Assembly: GCA_030526355.1 (NCBI GenBank)
Contig: JAUNDC010000016.1
Coordinates: 1-64,000 of the forward strand
DNA from: Bacillota bacterium
GTDB taxonomy: Bacteria; Bacillota; Clostridia; Peptostreptococcales; Anaerovoracaceae
DNA: 64,000 nt
Reading direction: 5' to 3'
The notes beneath the pieces were generated by a model that did not search any database, had not been told where the DNA came from, and was given only the letters and a program-made list of their open reading frames with translations. The first letter of the stretch is position 1, and each line of letters begins with the position of its first letter. Below, piece after piece: positions 11,894-61,731 of this stretch. The position numbers were made by a program, and so were the translations under genes.

Positions 11894-13930
11894 ATGGAAT
11901 TAAAAGACAGTATCAGCTGCCTTAAGGGAGTAGGCCCTAGAAAATCGGAAGCACTTGCAAAACTGAATATCCGTACGGTTGAGGATCTGATGTTCTTTTT
12001 TCCCAGAAGCTATGAGGACAGACGCTGCCGCAAAGAGATATGCCAGCTTAGAGAGGATGAAACCGCGGTCATAAAAGCTGAAATCAAGCTGGCAGTCAGC
12101 GACAGGTACAGAAAGGGCAGAAAACAGATTCTCAGATTACTGGCAGCAGATGATACAGGCACGATAGAAGTGGTTTTCTTTAACGCCGGATACCTGCAGA
12201 AGAGCTTCAAGGTCGGGACAGAATATGTATTTTATGGTAAAGTATCAGCTGCATTCGGTAAATTGCAGATGGTGCATCCTGATTTTTCGAAGGACGAAGG
12301 ATTGACGGGGATAATACCTGTGTATCCGCTTACCAAAGGGATTACGCAGAAAGAAATGCGTACATGGCAGAAGACAGCGGGTTCCCTTTATGATAAAGCA
12401 GAGGAAATGCTTTCGGAGGAAACTATCGAAAGAAACAGGCTCTGCAGCATGGAGTATGCACTGCGTAACGTGCATTTTCCACAGGAAAAACAGAAACTGC
12501 TTGAGGGCAAATACAGACTAGTGTTTGACGAGCTTATGGTGTTGCAGACGGGTCTTATGGCAGCTAGACAAAACAGTATCGATGGCAGAAGCGGTATTGC
12601 GTTTTCTCGCCAGGTATCTGTGGATGAATATATCGGTTCACTGCCTTATGAGCTTACGGGTGCACAGAAAAGATGCATCGGAGAAATTAACGATGATCTT
12701 GAAAGCGAAAGAATCATGAACAGGCTTGTTCAGGGAGACGTGGGCTCGGGAAAGACGGCAGTCGCGGAGGCAGCTATTTATAAGGCTGTAAAAAGCGGTT
12801 TTCAGGCTGTTATGATGGCGCCTACGGAAATATTGGCAAAACAGCATTATGAGGGTCTCAAGGCAAATTTTGAGGCTCATGGAATAAAAGTGGGATTTCT
12901 CTCGGGTTCCATGAAGGCTTCAGAGAAAAGGGCTGTGCAGCAGGACCTAAGAGATGGGAAAATAGATGTAATTACAGGCACACATGCTATTATTCAGCCA
13001 GAAGTTGAATTTTGCAGGCTTGGTCTTGTAATAACCGATGAACAGCATAGATTTGGTGTGAATCAACGCATCAGGCTAAAGGAAAAGGGCACAAATCCCA
13101 ACATTCTTGTAATGACAGCAACTCCGATACCAAGAACTCTGGCGGTAGTGCTTTATGGGGATCTTGATGTGTCTGTAATAGATGAGCTTCCGCCGGGAAG
13201 ACAGCCCGTGAAAACAAGATGTGTCAGAAACAAGATGAGAAACAGCTGCTATGACTTTGTTGAAAAACAGCTGGAACAGGGCAGACAGGCATATGTTGTG
13301 ACGCCTTTGATTGAGGAATCGGAGGTAATGGATGTCAGATCAGCAAGACAGGTGGCACAGGAGCTTTCTGAAAAGTTTTCAGGATATAATGTGGCATTGA
13401 TACACGGTGCAATGAAGCAGCAGGAAAAGGATGAAAAAATGGCGCTTTTTTATAAAGGCGAAATTGATGTACTTGTTGCTACGGTGGTTATAGAAGTAGG
13501 AATAAATGTACCGAATGCCACCGTTATAGTTATCGAGAATGCGGAGCGATTCGGTCTTGCGCAGCTGCATCAGCTGCGAGGCAGAGTTGGAAGAGGAAAG
13601 TACAGCTCATACTGTTTCCTGATACTTGAGGGGAATTCCGAAATTGCTGAAAAACGGTGTGATATTATGGAAAAATCCTCAGATGGTTTTTTTATAGCGG
13701 AAGAGGATCTCAAGCTGCGCGGACCAGGAGAGATTTTCGGGATGAAACAGCATGGACTGCCGGATCTTAACATTTCAGATCTTGCAAAGCATCTGGATAT
13801 TCTGAATCATGCGAAAGCCGAAGCAAAAAAAATTATCGAAGACGATCCGTTGCTTCGAAAAAATCAGAATCAGCAGCTTAAACGCAGAGTAATCAGGCTT
13901 TTTGGCGAAGATTTCAGCTTGAATCTATAG
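11894..13930 (+). CDS. recG: ATP-dependent DNA helicase RecG
   Basis: The product has 678 residues, a full-length RecG. The N-terminal wedge/OB domain begins with LKGVGPRK (HhH-like) and handles branched DNA. The helicase core carries Walker A GDVGSGKT (about residue 278) and the DEQH box. The C-terminal motor half has the QLRGRVGRGK motif VI. RecG remodels stalled forks and Holliday junctions. It is directly downstream of the asp23-type gene with no gap, and its own downstream spacing allows an independent SASP gene. Confidence 0.97.
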   Translation: MELKDSISCLKGVGPRKSEALAKLNIRTVEDLMFFFPRSYEDRRCRKEICQLREDETAVIKAEIKLAVSDRYRKGRKQILRLLAADDTGTIEVVFFNAGYLQKSFKVGTEYVFYGKVSAAFGKLQMVHPDFSKDEGLTGIIPVYPLTKGITQKEMRTWQKTAGSLYDKAEEMLSEETIERNRLCSMEYALRNVHFPQEKQKLLEGKYRLVFDELMVLQTGLMAARQNSIDGRSGIAFSRQVSVDEYIGSLPYELTGAQKRCIGEINDDLESERIMNRLVQGDVGSGKTAVAEAAIYKAVKSGFQAVMMAPTEILAKQHYEGLKANFEAHGIKVGFLSGSMKASEKRAVQQDLRDGKIDVITGTHAIIQPEVEFCRLGLVITDEQHRFGVNQRIRLKEKGTNPNILVMTATPIPRTLAVVLYGDLDVSVIDELPPGRQPVKTRCVRNKMRNSCYDFVEKQLEQGRQAYVVTPLIEESEVMDVRSARQVAQELSEKFSGYNVALIHGAMKQQEKDEKMALFYKGEIDVLVATVVIEVGINVPNATVIVIENAERFGLAQLHQLRGRVGRGKYSSYCFLILEGNSEIAEKRCDIMEKSSDGFFIAEEDLKLRGPGEIFGMKQHGLPDLNISDLAKHLDILNHAKAEAKKIIEDDPLLRKNQNQQLKRRVIRLFGEDFSLNL

Positions 13931-18244: not shown

Positions 18245-20035
18245 ATGTTTAAATCCATACAAACCAAGACAATGTTTTTTTTGCTGGCACTGGCAATAAG
18301 CCTGATTATAATAATAGGATATCTGACGGTATTTGCTATGGACTATGCAGCAGAGGATCTCAAGCATAATGATATGATGGATAAAGCAGAAGCAATTTCA
18401 TATATGTTGTCAGAGGAACTGACAGCAGATGCGAAATCTCCTGACGAAAAGCTTTTGGGAAAGGTTGTATCAAGCAAGCTGGAAGGTAATAATTTCATGA
18501 TAAACAGTAAAGGTGAAACTATCGGATATCAGGACAAAGAACTGCCTTACAAGCTGCCGCTAAAGGAAAGCTCCGAGATACAGGAAATATATAAAAATGA
18601 TAAATACTATGTTGCCGCCATAGCCGAGATTGAAGGAAGCGAGGGTTGGTATTTCTGTACCGAGGAAGCGACCTCTGACTATATGAGAACTCTGAATAAT
18701 ATCAAGACGATAATAATTATTGCAATTATTATTATTCTTTTTATACTGTGGCCTCTGGGTAAATGGATATCCTTCAGAATCCAGAAGCCTATTGAGAAGC
18801 TGGCATCTGATGCGGAACGAATTGCAGAGGGCGATATAAGCAGGGGAATTACTGTAAGTGAGGATAATGAACTGGCTGATATAGCGCAATCATTTAATCT
18901 GATGCTTAACAAGCTTAAGGATACAATGCAGCAGGTACTGGACAAATCTGCAGAAGCTGTGTCTATGCAGGAGGTTATGGCATATGTAGATGAAACCTAT
19001 AATGCCCTTCCGTCAGGAATAATAAGTATCAATAATATCGGTGAAATAACAACATTTAATTCTACAGCTGAAGCACTTACGGGGCTGTCTGCGAAAGAAC
19101 TGACCGGAATCAATATAGACAACCCGACTCCTCCTCAGATAAAAAAGCTTATCAAGGAGCTGAAGCGCTGCCTCAGCAGAGGTTCCCTGAAGCTCAAAAC
19201 CATAACGGATATAAAAAATCTTGCAGGAGAGACGATACCTGTAGAATACAGTATCAACATACAGTTCGGACTCAGAAATGAAGTTATAGGAGCTATATGC
19301 GTTTTTCGTAAAATAGATGATATAAGAAGCTTTGAGGAAAGTGCCAACAGAGTTAAAACCATGGAGGCTCTGGGAGAAATAGCTGCAAGTATGGCACATG
19401 AAATAAAAAACCCTCTGACAAGCATCAGGGGAAACGCCCAGTATCTTGAATTTATACTGAAGGAAAAGGAACTTTCCTTTGATGAGGTTGATATAATACT
19501 TCATGAAACCGACAGACTTACAACCATGCTTAATCGTTTTCTAAATTTTGCAAGGCCGAAGCTGCCTGAGCCTGAGAAGACAGACCTTTCAGAGATAATG
19601 GAATATGTTACTGTACTTATCAGCAGGGAAATGCCGGACAACATTAAGATAAAAAAGAATTTTGAAAAGATTCCGCTGGTAATGGCTGACAGGGAGATGT
19701 TTGAAAGCGTTTTTCTTAACCTTATGCTTAATGCGATTCAGGCAATGCCTGAAGGCGGCAAGGTGATTATGGAGACGCATTACGATAAGAAGCGAAATAT
19801 GGTTTGTGCGATTGTGAGGGATAACGGCAGTGGTATTCCTCCTGATATTTCAGATAAGATATTTGACCCGTTCTTCACCACAAAGGACACTGGAACAGGT
19901 ATGGGTCTTCCGATTGCATCAAGAATTGTTGAAATGCATAGAGGAATAATAGAGGTTGAAAGTATAGAAGGAGAGATGACTGAATTCAGAATCATGCTTC
20001 AGGCACTCCCGCAGGCAGACGATGAGGAGGAATAA
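18245..20035 (+). CDS. AtoS/NtrB-like sensor histidine kinase
   Basis: The product has 596 residues. A first membrane helix (about 10-31) and a second (about 153-171) enclose a ~120-residue extracytoplasmic sensor domain. HAMP (about 172-230) and PAS (about 245-365) follow, then HisKA with the phospho-acceptor His385 in MAHEIKNPLTSI, and a C-terminal HATPase with DNGSGIPPD, DPFFTTKDTGTGMGL. This order matches AtoS/NtrB-type kinases that pair with sigma-54 activators. The stop is directly followed by the response regulator gene, with no gap. The signal is unknown; a small organic molecule or nutrient is likely for this architecture. Confidence 0.93.
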   Translation: MFKSIQTKTMFFLLALAISLIIIIGYLTVFAMDYAAEDLKHNDMMDKAEAISYMLSEELTADAKSPDEKLLGKVVSSKLEGNNFMINSKGETIGYQDKELPYKLPLKESSEIQEIYKNDKYYVAAIAEIEGSEGWYFCTEEATSDYMRTLNNIKTIIIIAIIIILFILWPLGKWISFRIQKPIEKLASDAERIAEGDISRGITVSEDNELADIAQSFNLMLNKLKDTMQQVLDKSAEAVSMQEVMAYVDETYNALPSGIISINNIGEITTFNSTAEALTGLSAKELTGINIDNPTPPQIKKLIKELKRCLSRGSLKLKTITDIKNLAGETIPVEYSINIQFGLRNEVIGAICVFRKIDDIRSFEESANRVKTMEALGEIAASMAHEIKNPLTSIRGNAQYLEFILKEKELSFDEVDIILHETDRLTTMLNRFLNFARPKLPEPEKTDLSEIMEYVTVLISREMPDNIKIKKNFEKIPLVMADREMFESVFLNLMLNAIQAMPEGGKVIMETHYDKKRNMVCAIVRDNGSGIPPDISDKIFDPFFTTKDTGTGMGLPIASRIVEMHRGIIEVESIEGEMTEFRIMLQALPQADDEEE

Positions 20036-21409
20036 ATGACACAGACTAAGAAGATCCTTATAGTGGATGATGAACAGCATGTAAGACAGCTTCTGAGCAA
20101 GGTTCTCAGGAAGGAAGGCTATGAGATATATACGGCTGCCGACGGCATTGAGGGACTGCAGGTGTTTCAGGACAATAATATAGATGTCATAATAAGTGAT
20201 ATTAAAATGCCCGGAATGGATGGCATAGAGTTTCTTCATGAGGTTAAATCACAGCAGCCTGATGTAGGGTTTATCCTGATAACTGCCTTTGCTACCACTG
20301 AAACTGCAATAGACGCTATTAAGAGCGGAGCGCAGGATTATGTGACAAAGCCTTTTGATATCAATGAAATAATAAATGCAGTCAAGAAAATAGTGGCATC
20401 AAATGAGGCGGATTCCGATATGCCTTTTAAGGGCACAGAGTTGGAGCAAACAAAGGTTACAAGCAAGAGCCCTGCTATGAATGCAGTAATAGAGCTGGCA
20501 AAGCGAGTAGCTCAATCAGATGCAACAGTATTGATTCTGGGAGAAACAGGTACAGGCAAGGAAGTTATTTCCACAGCAATACATAACTGGAGTAAGAGAA
20601 AAGATAACCCTATGATTAAGGTCAACTGTGGTGCTATCCCGGACAATCTTCTGGAAAGTGAACTTTTCGGATATGAAAAAGGTGCATTCACAGGAGCAGC
20701 ATCATCAAAGCCGGGAAGGTTTGAATTCGCAGACGGGGGTACGATATTCCTTGATGAAATAGGTGATATTTCACCGTCTCTGCAGGTAAAACTGCTGAGG
20801 GTGCTGCAGGAAAAAACATTTGAAAGACTTGGTGGAATCAAAACCATTACTTCAAATGTCAGAGTTATTGCAGCAACAAATAAGGATCTTAAGGAAGCTG
20901 TGAAAAGAGGCGAATTCAGAGAGGATCTGTATTACAGACTTAACGTGGTTCCGATAAATCTTGTCCCATTGCGGGAACGAAAGGAGGATATCGAGGATCT
21001 GGTGGAATATTTCCTCCATTCCGCGGCCAGAATTTCCGGTATGGACAGACCGAAAACTGTAAATGCAGCGGCAATGGAATGCTTGAAAAACTACTATTGG
21101 CCGGGAAATATCAGAGAACTTGAAAACATAATAGAACGATGCGTGGTAATAACCCCCGAGGATGTTATAGGAGTTGACAGCCTTCCGGCTGAGATAGTAT
21201 CCGGCAGCGCTGGAGATAACGGTGGAAACAGTACGGGTGAAAACAGCTCCAGAGATCTGCTTAACGATGCCATAGATGATAAGGAAAAGGAAGTAATAAT
21301 AAAGGTGCTGAAAGAAAATAACGGAAATAAAACGAAATCTGCACTGGCTCTGGGTATAAGCAGAAGGTCACTTCACAGAAAAATTCAGAAGTATGGTATA
21401 ACTGACTGA
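20036..21409 (+). CDS. Sigma-54-dependent response regulator (NtrC/AtoC family)
   Basis: The product has 457 residues in three domains. The receiver domain (1-120) has the acidic pocket and phospho-acceptor Asp55. The AAA+ domain has Walker A GETGTGKE (169-176) and an intact GAFTGA loop (216-221), the part that contacts sigma-54. The C-terminal Fis-type HTH (about 425-457) ends with SRRSLHRKIQKYGI. It therefore activates, rather than represses, sigma-54 promoters. A sigma-54 promoter lies ahead of the convergent permease gene (23080-23096), making that gene the most likely target. A second one lies ahead of the 4-hydroxybutyrate genes. Confidence 0.95.
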   Translation: MTQTKKILIVDDEQHVRQLLSKVLRKEGYEIYTAADGIEGLQVFQDNNIDVIISDIKMPGMDGIEFLHEVKSQQPDVGFILITAFATTETAIDAIKSGAQDYVTKPFDINEIINAVKKIVASNEADSDMPFKGTELEQTKVTSKSPAMNAVIELAKRVAQSDATVLILGETGTGKEVISTAIHNWSKRKDNPMIKVNCGAIPDNLLESELFGYEKGAFTGAASSKPGRFEFADGGTIFLDEIGDISPSLQVKLLRVLQEKTFERLGGIKTITSNVRVIAATNKDLKEAVKRGEFREDLYYRLNVVPINLVPLRERKEDIEDLVEYFLHSAARISGMDRPKTVNAAAMECLKNYYWPGNIRELENIIERCVVITPEDVIGVDSLPAEIVSGSAGDNGGNSTGENSSRDLLNDAIDDKEKEVIIKVLKENNGNKTKSALALGISRRSLHRKIQKYGITD

Positions 21410-21547: not shown

Positions 21548-23008
21548 TTATGCTGCCGGTTTATGTTCATCTGTTGCCGGAGCTTTTTTGATATCTGCAT
21601 CGTCGTCATCAAGTACTGTTTCTTCGTTGATCATTGCTTCAACTTCAGGTGACCACAGGTGACCGAATGTTGTGTCTCCCTTGAAGAAATCTTTGCCATA
21701 GCAGAGGAGGCATGCCAGAATTCCTACTGCAAGTCCCCATGCGGATCCGTTTACTACCAGGACTCCGGCAATAACTCCGGCGATTCCAAGATCCTTGAAG
21801 CTTTTAGCCTGCTGAACACCGATACGAACACTTACAAATCCCTGAACGATCATTGTAAGAGAAAGTGCTACAGAGAGAATTGGCTGAACCAGTGTTACTA
21901 TCGGCATGAGCCAGTAGCCTGTAAAAGTTCCGAAACGGAAGCAGGCAGCTCCACCGAATATTGAGCCCATACTCTTCTTGCCCTTCTTGTAACGCTCGCA
22001 TACAACTACCTGCATTGCTGCCCACAGAGGTCCGCACATTGTAAGGTCAGGACCTATAACACCCATGATGGTATTTCTGATACCAAAGATGAGATGAGCT
22101 CGGTTAGGATTGTAGTCAACCTTTTCATCGGGTCTTGTAACATCGGCATCATGTACGAGTGCTTTACTCTGAACAACATCTCCGAATAATACGATGTATA
22201 TTGCTATTACAGTAGGGATTGATTTGATGAACATTGTCAGTGTTGGCCAGCCGAGAGCACCCCATGGTACCCAGTCGGTCCACAATGTTGCAAAATCAGG
22301 ATTCGAGAATCCCCATTCGATTTCAGGCCATGCAGTTTCGCCTACCAGAGGTGCTACTATTACTGCTACAAGTACAGCAGGCAGAATACCCAGATTGGCT
22401 ATAGTCTGAAATACTTTGTTTTTTGTACTGAGTCTTTTGAAGCCGTTTGAAAACAGCAGATAAAAGGCTACGATAAGGCATATTGTTGTGGTGTAAGGCA
22501 TTGCCTGGAATTTAGCTTCATCATTGAATATCATGTAAATTGCGGATATTCCTGCACCCAAGATAACACCTGATTTGATTGCAGGCGGTACAAGATTGAT
22601 AATCTTACCGGCTATACCTGTGAGACCAAGGACTATTGAGAATATTCCCAGTGTGATCTCAAAGGCAACAAGTGCCTGCATTCTGGCCTGTCCTTCAGGG
22701 AAGGTCAGACAATATGCTATAAGAAGCGGAATTGCCGGAGTAATCCATCCCGGAACTACCGGGTCACCCAGCAGAGTGTGCCAGCAGTAGAAGAATCCAT
22801 TGAGGATTACTATTGCCAGAGCTACTTCAAACGGCATGCCCAGATTTTCCTGAAGAAGTGGAATTGCTCCCAGACATACTGCACACATCAGCAGACCTTG
22901 AATATAATCTGCAATTTCAAAACGATAGTGAATGAATGGTAAACGGATCTTAAAAGGTCCTGCTTTGATAAACGGCTGCTCTTCGCCGTAAGGCATGTAC
23001 TCTTTCAT
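21548..23008 (-). CDS. Putative NCS2-like solute permease
   Basis: The product has 486 residues with about 12 membrane helices and an acidic, Asp-rich cytoplasmic C-terminal tail. The overall pattern resembles the NCS2 (xanthine/uracil/ascorbate) permease superfamily, including GDPVVPGWITPAIPLL near residue 80 and GIRNTIMGVIGPDLTMCGPL near residue 310. It is divergent from the classic purine transporters, so the substrate is open. AAGGAGAA precedes the start. A good sigma-54 promoter lies about 70 bp upstream and an AtoSC-like two-component system is convergent with it. The natural reading is that the kinase senses the transported compound or a related nutrient. Confidence 0.7.
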   Translation of the reverse strand: MKEYMPYGEEQPFIKAGPFKIRLPFIHYRFEIADYIQGLLMCAVCLGAIPLLQENLGMPFEVALAIVILNGFFYCWHTLLGDPVVPGWITPAIPLLIAYCLTFPEGQARMQALVAFEITLGIFSIVLGLTGIAGKIINLVPPAIKSGVILGAGISAIYMIFNDEAKFQAMPYTTTICLIVAFYLLFSNGFKRLSTKNKVFQTIANLGILPAVLVAVIVAPLVGETAWPEIEWGFSNPDFATLWTDWVPWGALGWPTLTMFIKSIPTVIAIYIVLFGDVVQSKALVHDADVTRPDEKVDYNPNRAHLIFGIRNTIMGVIGPDLTMCGPLWAAMQVVVCERYKKGKKSMGSIFGGAACFRFGTFTGYWLMPIVTLVQPILSVALSLTMIVQGFVSVRIGVQQAKSFKDLGIAGVIAGVLVVNGSAWGLAVGILACLLCYGKDFFKGDTTFGHLWSPEVEAMINEETVLDDDDADIKKAPATDEHKPAA

Positions 23009-23079: not shown

Positions 23080-23096
23080 CGCAAACCGTATGCCAA
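23080..23096 (-). promoter_or_regulatory. Sigma-54 (-24/-12) promoter of the permease gene
   Basis: On the minus strand the sequence is TTGGCATACGGTTTGCG. It has GG and GC exactly 10 bp apart and matches the TGGCAYR-N4-TTGC consensus. Transcription should begin near 23068, leaving a 60-base leader. Confidence 0.8.
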
Positions 23097-23257: not shown

Positions 23258-23308
23258 AGTGACAAAAGTGTCTCAGCTGCGTGAGATGGATAAATATGCC
23301 TAAAATCC

Positions 23309-54929: not shown

Positions 54930-55027
54930 TTCGAGTAAGAAGAATTTAATTTCCTGAACGGAAATATATTTCCTTAAAGCTGCTGCTTTAAAATGCTTTC
55001 AGTGCATTAAAAAAGAAAAAAACAAAA

Positions 55028-55660
55028 TTATTTTTTTGAGATTACAACCAGAAGAGTGCCGTTTTCGATGGAGACAACGGCCTCTTTTTTTATAAATTCG
55101 TTACTCACTCCAAGGGGAAAATCCTGGGTGAGTGTATATCGATCAAGCGTATATTTAACTCCGCGCAATGTAACTCCGGTGCATTTTTCCGAAAGGGAAA
55201 AAAACGAAAGATAACTGTCTTCTTCTGCCGGAATCACTATTGTACTTCTTTTTCTGCTGTCAACGACAAAGCACTTGTTTCTTCCGTCAAGCATTATCAG
55301 TGAACTGAAGCTGCAGCAGTAGTGGGACAGAAGCTGCAGATTGGCCACGGTGTGATCAAGTCTTCCTCCAATGCCGCCTGCGATTATAACATCACTAAAG
55401 TCGTTTTCCGCAGAGAATTTTAATGCAAGATCCAAATCTGTAAAATCCTTTTCAGGGTTGAATTCTATGGCTCTGATGTTGTCAGGCAGGGGCGATGTGA
55501 CAGAGTCGAAATCACCCATAATAAGATCTGGAATAATACCGCTCCGGGAGGCTATATCATATCCCCCATCAGTGCAGATAACGAAATCATCAGAATCGAT
55601 AAATTCGCCTAAATTTAGAGAATTTTCTATATATGATGTTATTATTACAGTTTTTTTCAT
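55028..55660 (-). CDS. thiN: Thiamine pyrophosphokinase
   Basis: The product has 210 residues and matches the ThiN/TPK family: an N-terminal FVICTDGGYDIASRSGIIPDL, the GDFDSV motif, and GGIGGRLDHTVANLQLL. It transfers pyrophosphate from ATP to thiamine to make the cofactor TPP. It lies convergent with glpK and divergent from the NifU-like gene. No THI-box riboswitch was seen in its leader. Confidence 0.92.
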   Translation of the reverse strand: MKKTVIITSYIENSLNLGEFIDSDDFVICTDGGYDIASRSGIIPDLIMGDFDSVTSPLPDNIRAIEFNPEKDFTDLDLALKFSAENDFSDVIIAGGIGGRLDHTVANLQLLSHYCCSFSSLIMLDGRNKCFVVDSRKRSTIVIPAEEDSYLSFFSLSEKCTGVTLRGVKYTLDRYTLTQDFPLGVSNEFIKKEAVVSIENGTLLVVISKK

Positions 55661-55709
55661 TTTTTTTAACTTCCTTATAAATATTTGTACTTTTGATAAT
55701 TATAACCTC

Positions 55710-55738
55710 TTGAAAAACGTTAAATCAAGTTATATAAT
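55710..55738 (+). promoter_or_regulatory. Sigma-A promoter of the NifU-like gene
   Basis: TTGAAA (55710-55715) and TATAAT (55733-55738) are 17 bp apart. Confidence 0.75.
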
Positions 55739-55801
55739 AAACATGTTCGGAATTTTGAGAGGTTGAATATAAATCGGCTTTGACTTTGGAAGGTGAGGCA
55801 T

Positions 55802-56080
55802 ATGGAAGATCAAATCAGAAAAGTATTAAAAGACAAGGTGGATCCTGTACTGGCTGCTCATTACGGAGGTGCTGTACTTACACATTTTGAAGATGGTGTG
55901 GCTTATGTTAAGCTGACAGGCTCCTGTGCCGGATGTCCTTCTGCACAGCAGACCATTGAGGACATAGTAAAGCAGATTGTGATGGAGAATCTGAACGGTA
56001 TCAAGGATGTTGTATTGGATACATCGGTAAGTGAGGATCTTCTTGAAATGGCCAGAAAGATTTTGAACAAGGAGATATAG
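55802..56080 (+). CDS. NifU C-terminal-like iron-sulfur cluster carrier
   Basis: The product has 92 residues, a stand-alone NifU C-terminal (Nfu) domain: the CAGC (CxxC) pair in LTGSCAGCPSAQQTIEDI holds a [4Fe-4S] cluster for delivery to target enzymes. It lies 115 bp upstream of the 4-hydroxybutyryl-CoA dehydratase, itself a [4Fe-4S]-FAD enzyme, so delivery to that enzyme is an attractive but unproven link. The ATG at 55802 follows GGAAGGTGAGG. Confidence 0.9.
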   Translation: MEDQIRKVLKDKVDPVLAAHYGGAVLTHFEDGVAYVKLTGSCAGCPSAQQTIEDIVKQIVMENLNGIKDVVLDTSVSEDLLEMARKILNKEI

Positions 56081-56097
56081 ACTATATATCGGATAAA

Positions 56098-56115
56098 GTG
56101 GTATAAAACTTGCAT
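56098..56115 (+). promoter_or_regulatory. Sigma-54-type promoter of the 4-hydroxybutyrate cluster
   Basis: GTGGTATAAAACTTGCAT shows TGG and TTGCA with GG and GC exactly 10 bp apart, matching TGGYRY-N5-TTGCW. Position 4 is T rather than the usual C. Transcription would start near 56126, about 70 bp ahead of abfD. Confidence 0.65.
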
Positions 56116-56195
56116 TATGTTTTTAATGTGGTTTATAATTATCATGACACAATAAAGTGACATGAGGTTAATAATAATAAAGGAGTGATTTAATT

Positions 56196-57668
56196 ATGTT
56201 AATGACAGGAGCTCAGTACATCGAAAGCTTAAGAAAGTTAAAGACAAGAGTTTATATGTTTGGTGAACAGATCGAAAATTGGGTGGATCATCCAATCATC
56301 AGACCATCAATCAACTGCGTTGCAGTAACATATGATCTCGCACAGGATCCTGAATATGCTGACCTGATGACAACTAAATCAAGTCTTACTGGTGAAACAA
56401 TCAACAGATTCGCTCATCTGCACCAGAGCACAGATGATTTAAGAAAGAAAGTTAAGATGCAGAGATTATGCGGACAGAAGACTGCTTCATGCTTCCAGAG
56501 ATGCGTAGGTATGGACGCTTTCAACGCTGTATTCTCAACAACTTATGAAACAGATAAGAAATATGGAACTAACTATCACGAAAACTTCAAGAACTTCCTG
56601 ATCGAAGTACAGCAGAACGACTGGATCGTTGATGGTGCTATGACTGACCCTAAGGGTGACAGAGGTCTTGCTCCACATGCTCAGAGAGATGCTGACATGT
56701 TCGTACATATCGTTGAAAGAAGAGAAGACGGTATCGTAGTAAGAGGAGCTAAGGTTCACCAGACTGGTTCAATCAACTCACACTGGCACATCATCATGCC
56801 TACACAGGCAATGAGAGAAGAAGATAAAGACTACGCTGTATCATTCGCATGCCCTTCAGATGTAGAAGGTATGTACATGATCTACGGAAGACAGTCATGT
56901 GATACAAGAAAATTAGAAGATGGCGCTGACGTTGACCTCGGTAACAAGCAGTTCGGCGGACAGGAAGCATTAGTAGTATTTGACGATGTATTCATCCCTA
57001 ACAAGTATGTATTCCAGGCTGGAGAATATGATTTCGCAGGAATGATGGTAGAAAGATTTGCTGGATACCACAGACAGTCATACGGTGGATGTAAAGTTGG
57101 TGTTGGTGACGTTGTTATCGGTGCTGCTGCACTGGCTGCTGAATACAATGGTGCTCAGAAAGCTTCACACATCAAGGACAAGCTCATCGAAATGACTCAC
57201 CTGAATGAAACTCTGTACTGCTGCGGTATCGCTTGCTCAGCTGAAGGTTGGCAGACAGAAGCTGGTAACTACCAGATTGACCTGCTGTTAGCTAACGTAT
57301 GTAAGCAGAACGTAACTAGATTCCCTTACGAAATCGTTAGATTAGCAGAAGACATCGCAGGCGGACTCATGGTAACTATGCCTTCAGAAGCTGACTTCAA
57401 GTCAGACAAGGTAGTTGGTAAGAACGGCGAAACTATCGGCGACATCTGCAACAAGTACTTCGCAGCTTCACCTGCTTGCACTACAGAAGAAAGAATGAGA
57501 GTATTAAGATTCCTCGAAAACATCTGTTTAGGAGCATCAGCAGTTGGATACAGAACAGAATCAATGCACGGAGCAGGTTCACCTCAGGCTCAGAGAATCA
57601 TGATCTCAAGACAGGGCAACATTGAAGGAAAGAAAGCTCTTGCTAAGGCAATCGCTGGAATTAAATAG
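56196..57668 (+). CDS. abfD: 4-hydroxybutyryl-CoA dehydratase / vinylacetyl-CoA isomerase
   Basis: The product has 490 residues and resembles AbfD of Clostridium aminobutyricum closely, including MLMTGAQYIESLRKL at the start. The four ligands of the unusual [4Fe-4S] cluster are present: Cys99 and Cys103 in CFQRC, and the His and Cys seven residues apart in YHRQSYGGC (His292 and Cys299 by family numbering). The enzyme removes water from 4-hydroxybutyryl-CoA through a radical mechanism and isomerises vinylacetyl-CoA to crotonyl-CoA. AAGGAG precedes the ATG. The codon choice is strikingly uniform (many TCA, GCT, GTA and AAG), suggesting strong expression. A terminator follows before the next gene. 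Confidence 0.96.
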   Translation: MLMTGAQYIESLRKLKTRVYMFGEQIENWVDHPIIRPSINCVAVTYDLAQDPEYADLMTTKSSLTGETINRFAHLHQSTDDLRKKVKMQRLCGQKTASCFQRCVGMDAFNAVFSTTYETDKKYGTNYHENFKNFLIEVQQNDWIVDGAMTDPKGDRGLAPHAQRDADMFVHIVERREDGIVVRGAKVHQTGSINSHWHIIMPTQAMREEDKDYAVSFACPSDVEGMYMIYGRQSCDTRKLEDGADVDLGNKQFGGQEALVVFDDVFIPNKYVFQAGEYDFAGMMVERFAGYHRQSYGGCKVGVGDVVIGAAALAAEYNGAQKASHIKDKLIEMTHLNETLYCCGIACSAEGWQTEAGNYQIDLLLANVCKQNVTRFPYEIVRLAEDIAGGLMVTMPSEADFKSDKVVGKNGETIGDICNKYFAASPACTTEERMRVLRFLENICLGASAVGYRTESMHGAGSPQAQRIMISRQGNIEGKKALAKAIAGIK

Positions 57669-57707
57669 TTTTTAGTCTTGGATTTACAGGGTATAAACTA
57701 GAAATTT

Positions 57708-57741
57708 GAGGCCGCTTTGTAGCCCAAAGCGGCCTCATTTT
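57708..57741 (+). terminator. Terminator after abfD
   Basis: GAGGCCGCTTTG (57708-57719) pairs perfectly with CAAAGCGGCCTC (57725-57736), followed by ATTTT. Readthrough or a weak internal promoter must serve the genes beyond. Confidence 0.85.
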
Positions 57742-57766
57742 ACGATAACGACATTGAGAGGCAATT

Positions 57767-58033
57767 ATGAAGTGTGGAATTAAATTTTGCGGAGGATGTA
57801 ATCCTGGTTATGACAGGAGACAGGCTTGTGAGGAGATTAAGGAAGCATTTGAGAATAAGGAGCTTGAATTCCTTCACGCTGTTGAAAATGATCCGTATGA
57901 CTGCCTTCTGGTGATAGGCGGATGCAGTAATTGCTGTGCTTCATATAACCAGTATAATGTAAAAGGCAATGTATATAAAATGTGGAACAGAGACCACATA
58001 GATAAAATCAAAGAAAAGCTATCTTCAATCTAG
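57767..58033 (+). CDS. Small Cys-rich protein in the 4-hydroxybutyrate cluster
   Basis: The product has 88 residues and eight Cys, two groups of which look like metal or iron-sulfur ligands: CGIKFCGGCNPGYDRRQAC and GGCSNCC. CGGCNP-x-YDR is a motif I associate with small uncharacterised proteins of anaerobes. It sits between abfD and the CoA-transferase gene, so it may help mature or protect one of them, or act as a redox sensor. Its ribosome site is GAGAGG. Function unknown. Confidence 0.7.
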   Translation: MKCGIKFCGGCNPGYDRRQACEEIKEAFENKELEFLHAVENDPYDCLLVIGGCSNCCASYNQYNVKGNVYKMWNRDHIDKIKEKLSSI

Positions 58034-58060
58034 CTTTTCTGATTGGAGGGAGAAAGCACT

Positions 58061-59377
58061 ATGGATTGGAAAGAAATATATGAGAGCAGAAAGTGTTCAG
58101 CTGATGAAGCTATGAAGCTGATCCAGTCAGGAGACAGAATCCTTTTTGCTCACGCTGTTGCAGAGCCTCAGGTTCTCGTTGACGCAATGGTTGCTAACAA
58201 GCATTTATACAAAGATATCACAGTTTCACACATGGTTACATTAGGTAAGGGAGAATATTCACTTCCTGAAAACCATGATGTATTCACTTTTGAAGGATGG
58301 TTCACAAGCCCTTCAACAAGAAAGTCACTTGCTCAGGGACACGGCGAATTCGTACCTGTATTCTTCCACGAAGTTCCTAAGTACATAAGACAGGATATCT
58401 TCCATGAAGATGTACTGCTGGTATCAGTATCAGAACCGGACGAGCATGGATACTGCAACGTAGGTGTATCATCCGACTACACAATGCAGGCTATCAAATC
58501 ATGCAGAACAGTTATCGCTGAAGTTAACAATCAGGTTCCTACAGTATTCGGTGATACATTCGTACATGTAAGTGAAATCGATGCGTTTGTTGAAAATTCA
58601 CATCCACTGTTCGAAAGCAAGCCTGCCAAGATTGGTCCTGTTGAAGAAGCTATCGGTAAAAACTGTGCTTCACTCATCGAAGATGGATCAACTCTGCAGT
58701 TAGGTATCGGAGCTATTCCTGATGCTGTACTTTCACAGCTGGGAGATAAGAAACACCTCGGTATCCACTCAGAAATGATCGCTGACGGTGTTGTAGATCT
58801 TTTCGAAAAAGGCGCTATCGACTGCACTCAGAAGGGTATCGACGAAGGCAAAATGGTTGTTACATTCCTGATGGGAACTAAGAAATTATATGATTTCTGT
58901 GACAAGAACCCAATGGTTGAATTAAGACCTGTTGACTATGTAAACCATCCTGAAGTAGTAGCTCAGTTAAAGAATCTGGTTTGCATCAATGCATGCGTAC
59001 AGGTTGACTTCATGGGACAGATTGTATCAGAATGTATCGGTACAAAGCAGATTTCAGGTGTAGGCGGACAGGTTGACTTCGTAAGAGGTGCAGCTATGGC
59101 TCATGATAACAACGCTAAGGCCATCATCGCTATGCCTTCAGTAACAGTAATGAAGGATGGAACAAAGGTTTCAAAGATTGTTCCGTTTATCGATCATGGT
59201 GCTGCTGTTACAACTTCAAGATGTGATGCTGACTACATCGTAACTGAGTACGGTATCGCCAGAATGAAGGGCAGAACTCTGAAAGACAGAGCAAGACAGC
59301 TGATAAATATCGCTCACCCTGACTTCAGGGAAGAACTCAAGGTTCAGTTCAAAGAAAGATTCAATGATGAATTTTAA
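58061..59377 (+). CDS. abfT: 4-hydroxybutyrate CoA-transferase
   Basis: The product has 438 residues and resembles AbfT. The glyoxal-like loop GIGAIPDAVLSQL and the active-site Glu238 in GIHSEM match the class I CoA-transferase family, where Glu forms the covalent thioester. It moves CoA from acetyl-CoA or butyryl-CoA to 4-hydroxybutyrate, yielding the substrate of AbfD. The ATG at 58061 follows GGAGGGAG; a TTG 18 bases upstream is ruled out. It ends 55 bp before the dehydrogenase gene. Confidence 0.95.
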   Translation: MDWKEIYESRKCSADEAMKLIQSGDRILFAHAVAEPQVLVDAMVANKHLYKDITVSHMVTLGKGEYSLPENHDVFTFEGWFTSPSTRKSLAQGHGEFVPVFFHEVPKYIRQDIFHEDVLLVSVSEPDEHGYCNVGVSSDYTMQAIKSCRTVIAEVNNQVPTVFGDTFVHVSEIDAFVENSHPLFESKPAKIGPVEEAIGKNCASLIEDGSTLQLGIGAIPDAVLSQLGDKKHLGIHSEMIADGVVDLFEKGAIDCTQKGIDEGKMVVTFLMGTKKLYDFCDKNPMVELRPVDYVNHPEVVAQLKNLVCINACVQVDFMGQIVSECIGTKQISGVGGQVDFVRGAAMAHDNNAKAIIAMPSVTVMKDGTKVSKIVPFIDHGAAVTTSRCDADYIVTEYGIARMKGRTLKDRARQLINIAHPDFREELKVQFKERFNDEF

Positions 59378-59432
59378 TTCATGATGAATATGATATTTAG
59401 TTAAAGTTTAGTTTAAGAAAAGAGGTACAATT

Positions 59433-60557
59433 ATGCAAGCATTAAGAGTAGTTCCTGCAATTAATTACTTTGATACTTTCAAGGAATTCAATGATGAATT
59501 CAAATTAGGAAAGGGTGACATCCTGGTAACTAACCAGTGGATGTATGATCCGTATGTAAAGCCGCTCGGAATTGATATTCCTGTAATTTACCAGGAAAAA
59601 TACGGTGCAGGCGAGCCTACTGACGAAATGATGGACGCTATGAAGAAGGATATGGATCAGTATGAATTCGACAGAATCATCGCTTTCGGTGGCGGTACTA
59701 TCGTTGACATCTGTAAGGTTCTGGCTTGTGAGATCCCTGACAAGGCTGCAGATCTCTACACTGGTAAGGTTGCTCCTAAGAGAATTAAGAAGCTGGTTCT
59801 GATTCCTACAACTTGCGGAACAGGCTCAGAAGTAACAAATGTTGCAGTAGCTTCAATTCCTTCACTTAATCTGAAGAAGGGTATCGCTGACGAACAGACT
59901 TATGCAGACGTTGCAGTTCTTATTCCTGAATCTCTGGCAGGACTGCCTGACAAAGTATTCGCTACTTCATCAGTAGACGCTCTGATTCACGCAGTAGAAT
60001 CATTCCTGTCACCTAAGGCTTCACCTTTCACAGAAATGTATTCACTGAAGGCTATCGAAATGATTATGGCTGGATACAAGACAATTATCGAAAGAGGCGG
60101 AAACACTAAAGAAAATAGAGCAGACCTGCTTAAGGACTTCTGCCTGGCTTCAAACTATGCAGGTATCGCTTTCGGTAATGCTGGATGCGGTGCTGTACAC
60201 GCTCTGTCTTATGCACATGGCGGTGCTTTCCACATTCCTCACGGCGAAGCTAACTTCATCTGCTTCACAGAAGTATTCAAGATGTACATGAGAAAACAGC
60301 CTGTAGGTAAGATTCAGGTTGCTAACAAGCTGTTTGCAGATGTATTAGGATGTGCAGAAGCTGATGTATATCCTGAACTGGACAAGTTCTTAGGCAAGAT
60401 TCTTGAAAAGAAACCGCTTAAGGAATATGGAATGACTGAAGATCAGGTTGCTTCATTTGCTAAATCAACTGTTGACAATCAGCAGAGACTTCTCGGAAAC
60501 AACTACGTTCCTCTTACAGAAGAAGAAATCGCAGAAATCTTCCAGAACCTGTACTAA
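59433..60557 (+). CDS. 4-hydroxybutyrate dehydrogenase (iron-type alcohol dehydrogenase)
   Basis: The product has 374 residues of the iron-dependent alcohol dehydrogenase family. The NAD-binding region has FGGGTIVDICK and TTCGTGSEVTN; metal ligands include the His of DALIHAVESF and HIPHGEAN. Homologues (4HbD) reduce succinate semialdehyde to 4-hydroxybutyrate. In this context that step feeds the CoA-transferase and dehydratase next door. AAAAGAGG precedes the ATG. A strong terminator follows. Confidence 0.92.
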   Translation: MQALRVVPAINYFDTFKEFNDEFKLGKGDILVTNQWMYDPYVKPLGIDIPVIYQEKYGAGEPTDEMMDAMKKDMDQYEFDRIIAFGGGTIVDICKVLACEIPDKAADLYTGKVAPKRIKKLVLIPTTCGTGSEVTNVAVASIPSLNLKKGIADEQTYADVAVLIPESLAGLPDKVFATSSVDALIHAVESFLSPKASPFTEMYSLKAIEMIMAGYKTIIERGGNTKENRADLLKDFCLASNYAGIAFGNAGCGAVHALSYAHGGAFHIPHGEANFICFTEVFKMYMRKQPVGKIQVANKLFADVLGCAEADVYPELDKFLGKILEKKPLKEYGMTEDQVASFAKSTVDNQQRLLGNNYVPLTEEEIAEIFQNLY

Positions 60558-60591
60558 AAACAAATATTGCGCATATAATTAATGCGAATGA

Positions 60592-60614
60592 CCCCGGCAT
60601 TCTGCCGGGGTTTT
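60592..60614 (+). terminator. Terminator of the 4-hydroxybutyrate cluster
   Basis: CCCCGGCA (60592-60599) pairs with TGCCGGGG (60603-60610), followed by four T residues. Confidence 0.9.
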
Positions 60615-60641
60615 ATATTGCTATTATGCATAGCGTATATG

Positions 60642-60670
60642 TTGAAGTTTTTATATTTTTATGGTAATAT
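60642..60670 (+). promoter_or_regulatory. Sigma-A promoter of the DUF975 gene
   Basis: TTGAAG (60642-60647) and TAATAT (60665-60670) are 17 bp apart. Confidence 0.65.
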
Positions 60671-60714
60671 GAATTATCAGTTTATACAGAAATTAAAATG
60701 AAATGAGGGTAAAT

Positions 60715-61731
60715 ATGCAACAGAATATGATGGGACATAATATTATTATTACAGAGCCGAGCAGCAACCTGAGGGCACTTGGCAGAAATTCACTGGCAGG
60801 TAAATGGAAGGTGGCTGTATTGGCATATATAATATATATTGTTTGTACGGAGTTTCCTCCAGCTGTTTTCAACTCGTTTTTTGGATTGAATATAGGTGAA
60901 ATGTACAATAATATGTACGGATACGGAGCCGGTTCAATGAGTGCTGATATGTACAGCCAGATATACAACAGTACACCAAGTTATTCTCTGCTCAGCGCAG
61001 TTTATCTGTTAATCGTATCAGGTCCGTTTACTCTGGGTGTTACTATTTTTTTCCTTGCTCTGTTCAGGAAACAGAATGCAGGAGTAATTGATATATTTCT
61101 TGGCTTCGAACGGTTCGGTAAGGCATTGGGACTGATGCTGTTCCAGGGACTCTTTATCGTTCTGTGGTCTCTTATCGGTGTGGCTGTTATGGTACTGGGT
61201 ATAGTAATATCTGCATTTACTATTATCGGTGGTATGGTCGTAATCATAATTGGGTGTATAGTAGCTGCCGTATTCGGGACAATAGCTACCCTCAAATACA
61301 GCCAGGCTGTATATATCCTTGCTGACAATCCTGATAAGGGAATAAGAGAATGCGTTGATGAGAGTAAGATAATGATGAAGGGCAACAAAGCTAAACTGTT
61401 CTGGCTCCAGTTGTCATTTATCGGATGGATTCTTCTGGCTAGTATCCCGACGGGAATTCTCTCCGGCGTAGCTGAAGCTATGCAGATGACAGGTATAGCA
61501 TTGATAATAATAAATGTTATAGCCGCTCTGTTCATGGCACCTGTAGGCGCTTATACGTATTCATCAGTTACCGGGTTTTATGAAATTCTTGCAGGTCATC
61601 TGATCAAGGAAACAGAGCCGGCACCAATAAATACAGATGTATTTGCTGCTAATGAACAGTTGGTACAGACTTCCGAGCCTTCTGATCATATTCCTGAAAT
61701 AGTGGAAGATAATAATGAAAAGGAAAACTGA
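60715..61731 (+). CDS. DUF975-family membrane protein
   Basis: The product has 338 residues with about six membrane helices and the DUF975 pattern (SGPFTLGVTIFFLALFRKQ, and a Tyr-rich KYSQAVYILADNP segment). A disordered acidic tail closes the protein. Members occur in many Gram-positive bacteria; their role is unknown. The ATG at 60715 follows ATGAGGG; the in-frame ATG at 60703 overlaps that site. The next gene starts 5 bp after its stop. Confidence 0.83.
   Translation: MQQNMMGHNIIITEPSSNLRALGRNSLAGKWKVAVLAYIIYIVCTEFPPAVFNSFFGLNIGEMYNNMYGYGAGSMSADMYSQIYNSTPSYSLLSAVYLLIVSGPFTLGVTIFFLALFRKQNAGVIDIFLGFERFGKALGLMLFQGLFIVLWSLIGVAVMVLGIVISAFTIIGGMVVIIIGCIVAAVFGTIATLKYSQAVYILADNPDKGIRECVDESKIMMKGNKAKLFWLQLSFIGWILLASIPTGILSGVAEAMQMTGIALIIINVIAALFMAPVGAYTYSSVTGFYEILAGHLIKETEPAPINTDVFAANEQLVQTSEPSDHIPEIVEDNNEKEN

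Follow-up and report, generated by a model that had tools for sequence, protein, structure and literature searches.

A conserved, predicted sigma-54 promoter ahead of the 4-hydroxybutyryl-CoA dehydratase gene abfD in an Anaerovoracaceae bacterium

The window analysed here is a 64,000-nucleotide stretch of contig JAUNDC010000016.1 from a gut-type Bacillota bacterium of the Anaerovoracaceae, and its subject is a sigma-54-type -24/-12 element that lies ahead of a 4-hydroxybutyrate gene cluster on the plus strand. The cluster contains abfD (56196..57668), which encodes 4-hydroxybutyryl-CoA dehydratase/vinylacetyl-CoA isomerase, the enzyme through which gamma-aminobutyrate (GABA) and 4-hydroxybutyrate enter butyrate formation in gut anaerobes. 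The AbfD protein matches the structure 1U8V (gamma-aminobutyrate metabolism dehydratase/isomerase) with an E value of 1.4e-295, and the product of abfT (58061..59377; open reading frame (ORF) from 58043) matches the 4-hydroxybutyrate CoA-transferase 3GK7 with an E value of 1.4e-225; we take both structures to be Clostridium aminobutyricum enzymes. Between the two genes lies a cysteine-rich ORF of 88 amino acids (57767..58033), which occupies the same place in most relatives that have nifU upstream and finds no Pfam or NCBIfam match at 0.001. A 4hbD-like iron alcohol dehydrogenase gene (59433..60557) scores below the NCBIfam cut-offs and is assigned as 4-hydroxybutyrate dehydrogenase by context. 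Directly upstream of abfD is a nifU-domain gene (55793..56080).

The element, TGGTAT-AAAAC-TTGCA, occupies 56099..56114 of the plus strand within the sequence aaagTGGTATAAAACTTGCAttatg. Its GG (56100-56101) and GC (56112-56113) are separated by 10 bp, in agreement with the sigma-54 promoter pattern TGGYAY-N5-TTGCW, and its end is 82 bp from the abfD ATG at 56196. The first-pass annotation of this DNA had described TGGTAT-N5-TTGCA with GG and GC 10 bp apart, and this is borne out; its figure of about 70 bp to abfD suits the predicted transcription start rather than the element itself. That start would fall at 56125..56126, 12 nt beyond the -12 C (56113). Taken together, the sequence, conservation and spacing of the element make it very probable that 56099-56114 is a working sigma-54 promoter for abfD.

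To follow the element among relatives, 169 abfD upstreams were assembled: that of the window, those of 80 loci taken from named genomes, and 88 usable sequences from genomes of its own family. Merging of identical sequences left 126. Within the final 200 nt ahead of abfD, 21 of the 126 carry an exact TGGYAY-N5-TTGCW, all on the sense strand and between -65 and -122, while dinucleotide shuffles of the same sequences contain 0.05 sites on average and 2 at most. Neither the reversed motif nor any of the spacers N2-N4 and N6-N9 is present in any of the 126. One of the relatives with the site is the cultured Sinanaerobacter chloroacetimidivorans (L090). In the window and in loci L018, L019, L020, L021 and L153, both elements are invariant while the spacer, the flanks and the TATAAT that resembles a -10 all vary. 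Mapped onto a tree of 97 AbfD rows, presence of the site requires 8 changes compared with 19.2 after shuffling (none of 500 shuffles as low), which amounts to strong clustering. In L020, L021 and L153, an inverted repeat, AACAAATGCGATTTGTT (varied in L153), abuts the -24 element and is a possible repressor or activator site.

The machinery for such a promoter is encoded in the same genome. One full sigma-54 was found (PF04552, E value 4.2e-63, contig C19, open frame of 489 amino acids), together with 17 PF00158 activator-domain matches over the cut-off; two of these are weak and partial and were excluded, and 14 of the remaining 15 strong domains have a GAFTGA-type loop (G-x-[FYLT]-[TS]-G-[AS]). 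Exact sites with the N5 spacer lie within 6 kb of a strong activator domain in 11 of 24 cases, in contrast to 0 of 26 for the wrong N6 spacer (Fisher p = 7e-5), which shows that the N5 class is enriched in real promoters.

Several observations weigh against a sigma-54 promoter. The count of the motif is not significant on its own because it matches chance in the window, where 9 matches with at most one mismatch (2 exact) compare with 9.99 expected from shuffles, and matches the N6 control genome-wide, where 24 exact N5 sites compare with 26 N6 sites (reversed-pattern controls, 1 and 6). Since N5 does not exceed N6, the genome-wide count was dropped as evidence, and the case for the promoter rests on conservation because motif frequency alone is at the level of chance. 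A TATAAT stands 18 bp from a TTGCAT at abfD. No enhancer was recognized upstream of abfD in the window by a dyad search or by a search with the permease-type palindrome described below; an enhancer would be expected about 80-250 bp from the promoter. Furthermore, 105 of the 126 upstreams have no exact site, and same-genus relatives that retain the entire cluster without one exist. By the yardstick of the first-pass annotation, that near relatives with the cluster should also have the motif, the proposal holds only in part: 29 of the 46 upstreams with a recognizable nifU lack an exact site (one of the 29, L235 of genome G093, is one base off), and several of these come from the genus of the window. 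The elements are invariant in the nearest relatives. Sigma-54 itself is present in 43 of the 46 genomes searched, and this rules out absence of sigma-54 as the general cause of site loss. The patchy distribution is most simply explained if the promoter has been both gained and lost. A second exact match in the window (13117-13132, minus strand) runs antisense inside a long ORF (11894-13930) and is probably a chance occurrence.

The alternative that survives best accepts the sigma-54 promoter as real but minor, a condition-specific boost on abfD transcription that mainly reads through from a sigma-A promoter of nifU. A good sigma-A promoter-like site, TTGAAA-N17-TATAAT, was called at 55710..55738 (plus strand) and the same sequence is found in the sister locus L018; the terminator scan called none between nifU and abfD, and the cluster is retained in many relatives that have no sigma-54 site. 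The scan call is weak by itself, with 13 such sites in the region compared with 14.1 in shuffles; the occurrence of the site in L018 carries more weight. Promoter strength is not readable from sequence, and in the window clade the sigma-54 elements are clearly constrained. We hold the minor role to be a serious contender that falls somewhat short of an even chance. Basal read-through of some extent is likely because a sigma-A-like site precedes nifU and no terminator is called before abfD, so that some abfD mRNA is probably made without sigma-54. Thus, of the two parts of the original proposal, the sigma-54 promoter has strong support from conservation and from the sigma-54 and activator genes, but the claim that 4-hydroxybutyrate use depends on the activator is too strong.

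Downstream of the predicted sigma-54 start, the abfD leader contains a hairpin, TCATGACAC-AATAAA-GTGACATGA (56142..56165, plus strand), whose pairing is kept by covariation in relatives. It consists of 5 bp, a 1x1 mismatch, 3 bp and a six-base loop that is often AAUNNN, with stem sequences that differ among relatives. RNAalifold predicts this helix and no other from 20 near leaders. Paired cells amount to 84.4% compared with 62.2% in shuffles that retain the relatedness among leaders (0 of 500 as high), and the covariation score is 0.611 compared with 0.269 (0 of 500), and no slid control exceeds 0.142. Two stricter measures stay at the level of the shuffles: pairs with both sides changed number 4 versus 3.6 (318 of 500), and there are 12 further pair types versus 10.7 (130 of 500). 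The folding z-score is -1.9 or lower in 22 of 25 leaders (the exceptions are L044, L034 and L035); the fold of the whole 70-nt leader of the window is unremarkable (z -0.74), and the hairpin is its core. A search of window positions 55000-61000 with 4227 Rfam models gave no match at the leader, and the sole match (60548-60694) is far below the gathering score. The hairpin occurs with and without the sigma-54 site. Together with the sigma-A-like promoter of nifU, the hairpin suggests further layers of control.

Two more hairpins lie further along the cluster. A 13-bp GC-rich hairpin between abfD and the 88-residue ORF (57707..57737, plus strand) is followed on that strand by the tail ATTTTACG. 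The scan reports a terminator here only for the minus strand, and the hairpin may serve as a partial terminator or a processing site. It is very stable with a weak T tail, and may raise the abundance of abfD over the later genes. An intrinsic terminator-like hairpin was called by the terminator scan after 4hbD (60590..60612, plus strand).

A sigma-54 promoter calls for an activator, and two candidates were considered. The first is a two-component system elsewhere in the window, consisting of a sensor histidine kinase (18245..20035, plus strand), the candidate signal sensor, and an NtrC-type response regulator with a GAFTGA-bearing AAA+ domain (20036..21409, plus strand). The predicted sensor fold of the kinase (model pLDDT 73, moderate) gives weak matches to CACHE-type sensor domains, none with an E value below 0.001. 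Linked to the pair is an NCS2/PurT-like permease gene on the minus strand (21548..23008), which is preceded by the sigma-54 site TGGCATACGGTTTGCG (23080..23095, one base off) and, 179 bp upstream of that site, by the enhancer-like palindrome GAGACACTTTTGTCAC (23259..23274). According to this proposal, the pair activates abfD here, with the permease as a co-target.

Of 296 family genomes, 6 yielded a kinase orthologue (at least 52% identity, nearly full length), in each case followed by the regulator; this search, like that for the second candidate, scored the best four candidates per genome, and absences are not airtight. The permease (83-96% identical) adjoins the pair in four of these genomes and heads the same apparent operon in G134 and G186, and a sigma-54 site precedes it in all six, with a single deviating base in the window and G333 and an exact match in the other four. 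In G134 and G186 (L028, Anaerovorax sp. IOR16), a sigma-54 site, the permease, nifU, abfD, abfT, the kinase and the regulator form one apparent operon, in which the 88-residue ORF between abfD and abfT is called in G134 only, and GTGACA-N4-TGTCAC lies about 150 bp upstream of the sigma-54 site. The same palindrome is found 147-182 bp further upstream of the permease sites in 5 of the 6 genomes, with one base changed in the window; G093 has none. An exact GWGACA-N4-TGTCWC is a rare find: G134 has two copies, while G000, G333, G175 and G186 have a single one, and in each of these genomes the permease site accounts for one copy. The sole exact copy in G093 lies elsewhere. When one mismatch is allowed, the genome of the window has 18 matches compared with 29 for the reversed control per strand, and only the exact copies stand out.

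Against the pair, the 600 bp ahead of the abfD site contain no GTGACA-N4-TGTCAC, even with two mismatches allowed, in the window, L018 or G093, so that the presumed enhancer is missing there. Nor does the pair track the abfD site: among genomes scanned for that site, the pair is present in 2 of the 19 that have it and in 4 of the 64 others (p = 0.62), or 2 of 19 and 4 of 119 when genomes unscanned for the site are added to the negatives. Clostridium aminobutyricum (G175) has the pair, and the abfD site was not found there. The site-bearing loci L060 and L244 have a different kinase and NtrC-type regulator near the cluster, the regulator being 43% identical. Judged from gene order, the pair is tied to abfD in the Anaerovorax-type lineage. 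A connection between abfD and 18245-21409 had been called speculation; it is now better than that because the orthologues share one apparent operon with abfD in two genomes, and it is unproven because the enhancer-like palindrome is missing upstream of abfD in the window. The comparative support for the link appears real but indirect, and we regard the pair as a possible, though rather unlikely, activator of abfD in the window.

The second candidate is a one-component, PrdR-like enhancer-binding protein encoded on contig C48 (L323, 135-1925), orthologues of which precede a GABA transaminase gene. An orthologue adjoins a GABA-transaminase-type gene in G333 (L324) and G175 (L284), the transaminase scoring below the curated cut-offs, and in the genome of the window the neighbour of the activator lies beyond the contig end. 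Orthologues of at least 60% identity are found in 13 of 19 site-bearing genomes versus 19 of 64 other scanned genomes (Fisher p = 0.003, uncorrected for kinship); with 55 genomes unscanned for the site counted among the negatives, the comparison is 13 of 19 versus 25 of 119 (p = 7e-5). The pathway would also be compatible with a GABA link. However, no orthologue was found in six site-bearing genomes, and several site-less genomes of the same genus hold one. No sigma-54 site with at most one mismatch was found on the short contig of this activator or in L324. Its assignment to abfD is tentative, on a level with that of the two-component pair.

The dyad search upstream of abfD found no palindrome common to the whole window clade. 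The best dyad, TTTGAGA-N6-TCGCAAA, is part of the nifU coding sequence and precedes the sigma-54 site by about 211-238 bp in L020, L021, L050, L061, L080 (where one arm base varies), L153, L231 and L236, and is missing at nifU in the window and L018. The codons it covers favour the major codon (0.89 over 7 codons versus 0.58 over 44 others), a partly circular comparison since the 8 loci were selected by the palindrome. A scan of 17 genomes placed the dyad at nifU in 6 of them, where it is either the sole exact match or one of two; the single exact match in the genome of the window is on another contig (C20). The nifU palindrome, which shows little synonymous drift, may be an enhancer inside a gene.

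The weakest alternative treats the site as a sigma-A promoter, with TTGCAT (56110-56115) as a poor -35 (3 of 6 bases) and TATAAT (56134..56139) as the -10 at a spacer of 18, or with TGGTATAAA as an extended -10, and with the sigma-54 appearance as accidental; it is very unlikely, since the full TATAAT at spacer 18 is kept only in the window and L018 (2 of 21 site-bearing loci), with 5 of 6 bases at spacer 15 in L019, and no conserved -35/-10 pair with a 16-18 bp spacer runs through the 21 loci. In the other 18, the best hexamer 15-19 nt downstream matches 2-5 of 6 bases at varying distances (5 of 6 in L224 alone, at spacer 15), whereas all 21 have an exact TGGYAY-N5-TTGCW, having been selected for it, and no other spacing occurs. 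The extended -10 (TG-N-TATAAA) matches at 4 or 5 of 6 bases in the window clade and drops to 3 or 4 in deeper relatives, except L060 (5 of 6). A start from TATAAT would also remove the 5´ arm of the conserved leader hairpin, while a start near 56125 would leave it intact, which favours the sigma-54 start.

In the mechanism that we propose for the sigma-54 promoter, sigma-54 RNA polymerase would bind the -24/-12 element and initiate near 56125, and transcription would require an ATP-driven enhancer-binding activator. Expression of abfD, and of abfT and 4hbD via read-through, would be raised when 4-hydroxybutyrate or a precursor such as GABA is present. The sigma-A promoter before nifU would supply basal read-through into abfD, and the leader hairpin would act on the mRNA regardless of the promoter of origin. 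It is likely that abfD is switched on by a dedicated activator, for which the pair and the GABA-linked protein are two good candidates. The conserved promoter would mean that the 4-hydroxybutyryl-CoA dehydratase step is held back, at least partly, until a dedicated signal and its activator are present; the two candidates, the permease and the leader hairpin make the abfD signal testable. A broader model, which we consider doubtful and put forward more cautiously than either activator assignment, treats abfD of this family as a switch with two layers. The sigma-54 promoter would have been kept or regained while the activator changed, with a nifU-embedded enhancer in some lineages, a permease-linked two-component system in the Anaerovorax lineage, and that pair or the GABA-linked activator possibly in the lineage of the window, and the covarying leader hairpin would operate below any promoter.

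Parts of this arrangement resemble known systems. AtoS and AtoC of Escherichia coli, which are associated with short-chain fatty acids, are the best NCBIfam matches of the kinase (286 of the 646-bit cut-off) and the regulator (518 of 714 bits), and neither protein reaches the equivalog cut-off, both falling far below it. The GABA/4-hydroxybutyrate enzymes of C. aminobutyricum share orthologues of abfD and abfT with the window, but no sigma-54 site was found before its abfD (L037, L289). A literature search, which was not aimed at the hairpin or the permease by name, did not find the permease/two-component arrangement or the leader hairpin. COG2368, the 4-hydroxybutyryl-CoA dehydratase family, is listed as a predicted sigma-54 target in Clostridia (PMC12316311); the enzyme family and the sigma factor are the same, but in the part of that source consulted the prediction is statistical over classes, with no locus-level anatomy. 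The closest counterpart is the XanR regulon of Clostridium, in which Table 1 of PMC6615313 gives abfD-nifU-hyp-ach-golB as a predicted sigma-54 target, with the consensus TTGGCATNNNNNTTGCT; other promoters were examined in that study by gel shift with purified sigma-54. As in the window, the abfD cluster there, as tabulated, has nifU, a hypothetical gene, ach (presumably a CoA-hydrolase/transferase, to judge by the gene name) and a predicted sigma-54 promoter. Unlike the order abfD-nifU-hyp-ach of that table, nifU precedes abfD in the window and has its own sigma-A-like promoter, and the lineage is different. Sigma-54 control of abfD is thus already predicted in print for Clostridium, and the prediction is here extended to another lineage.

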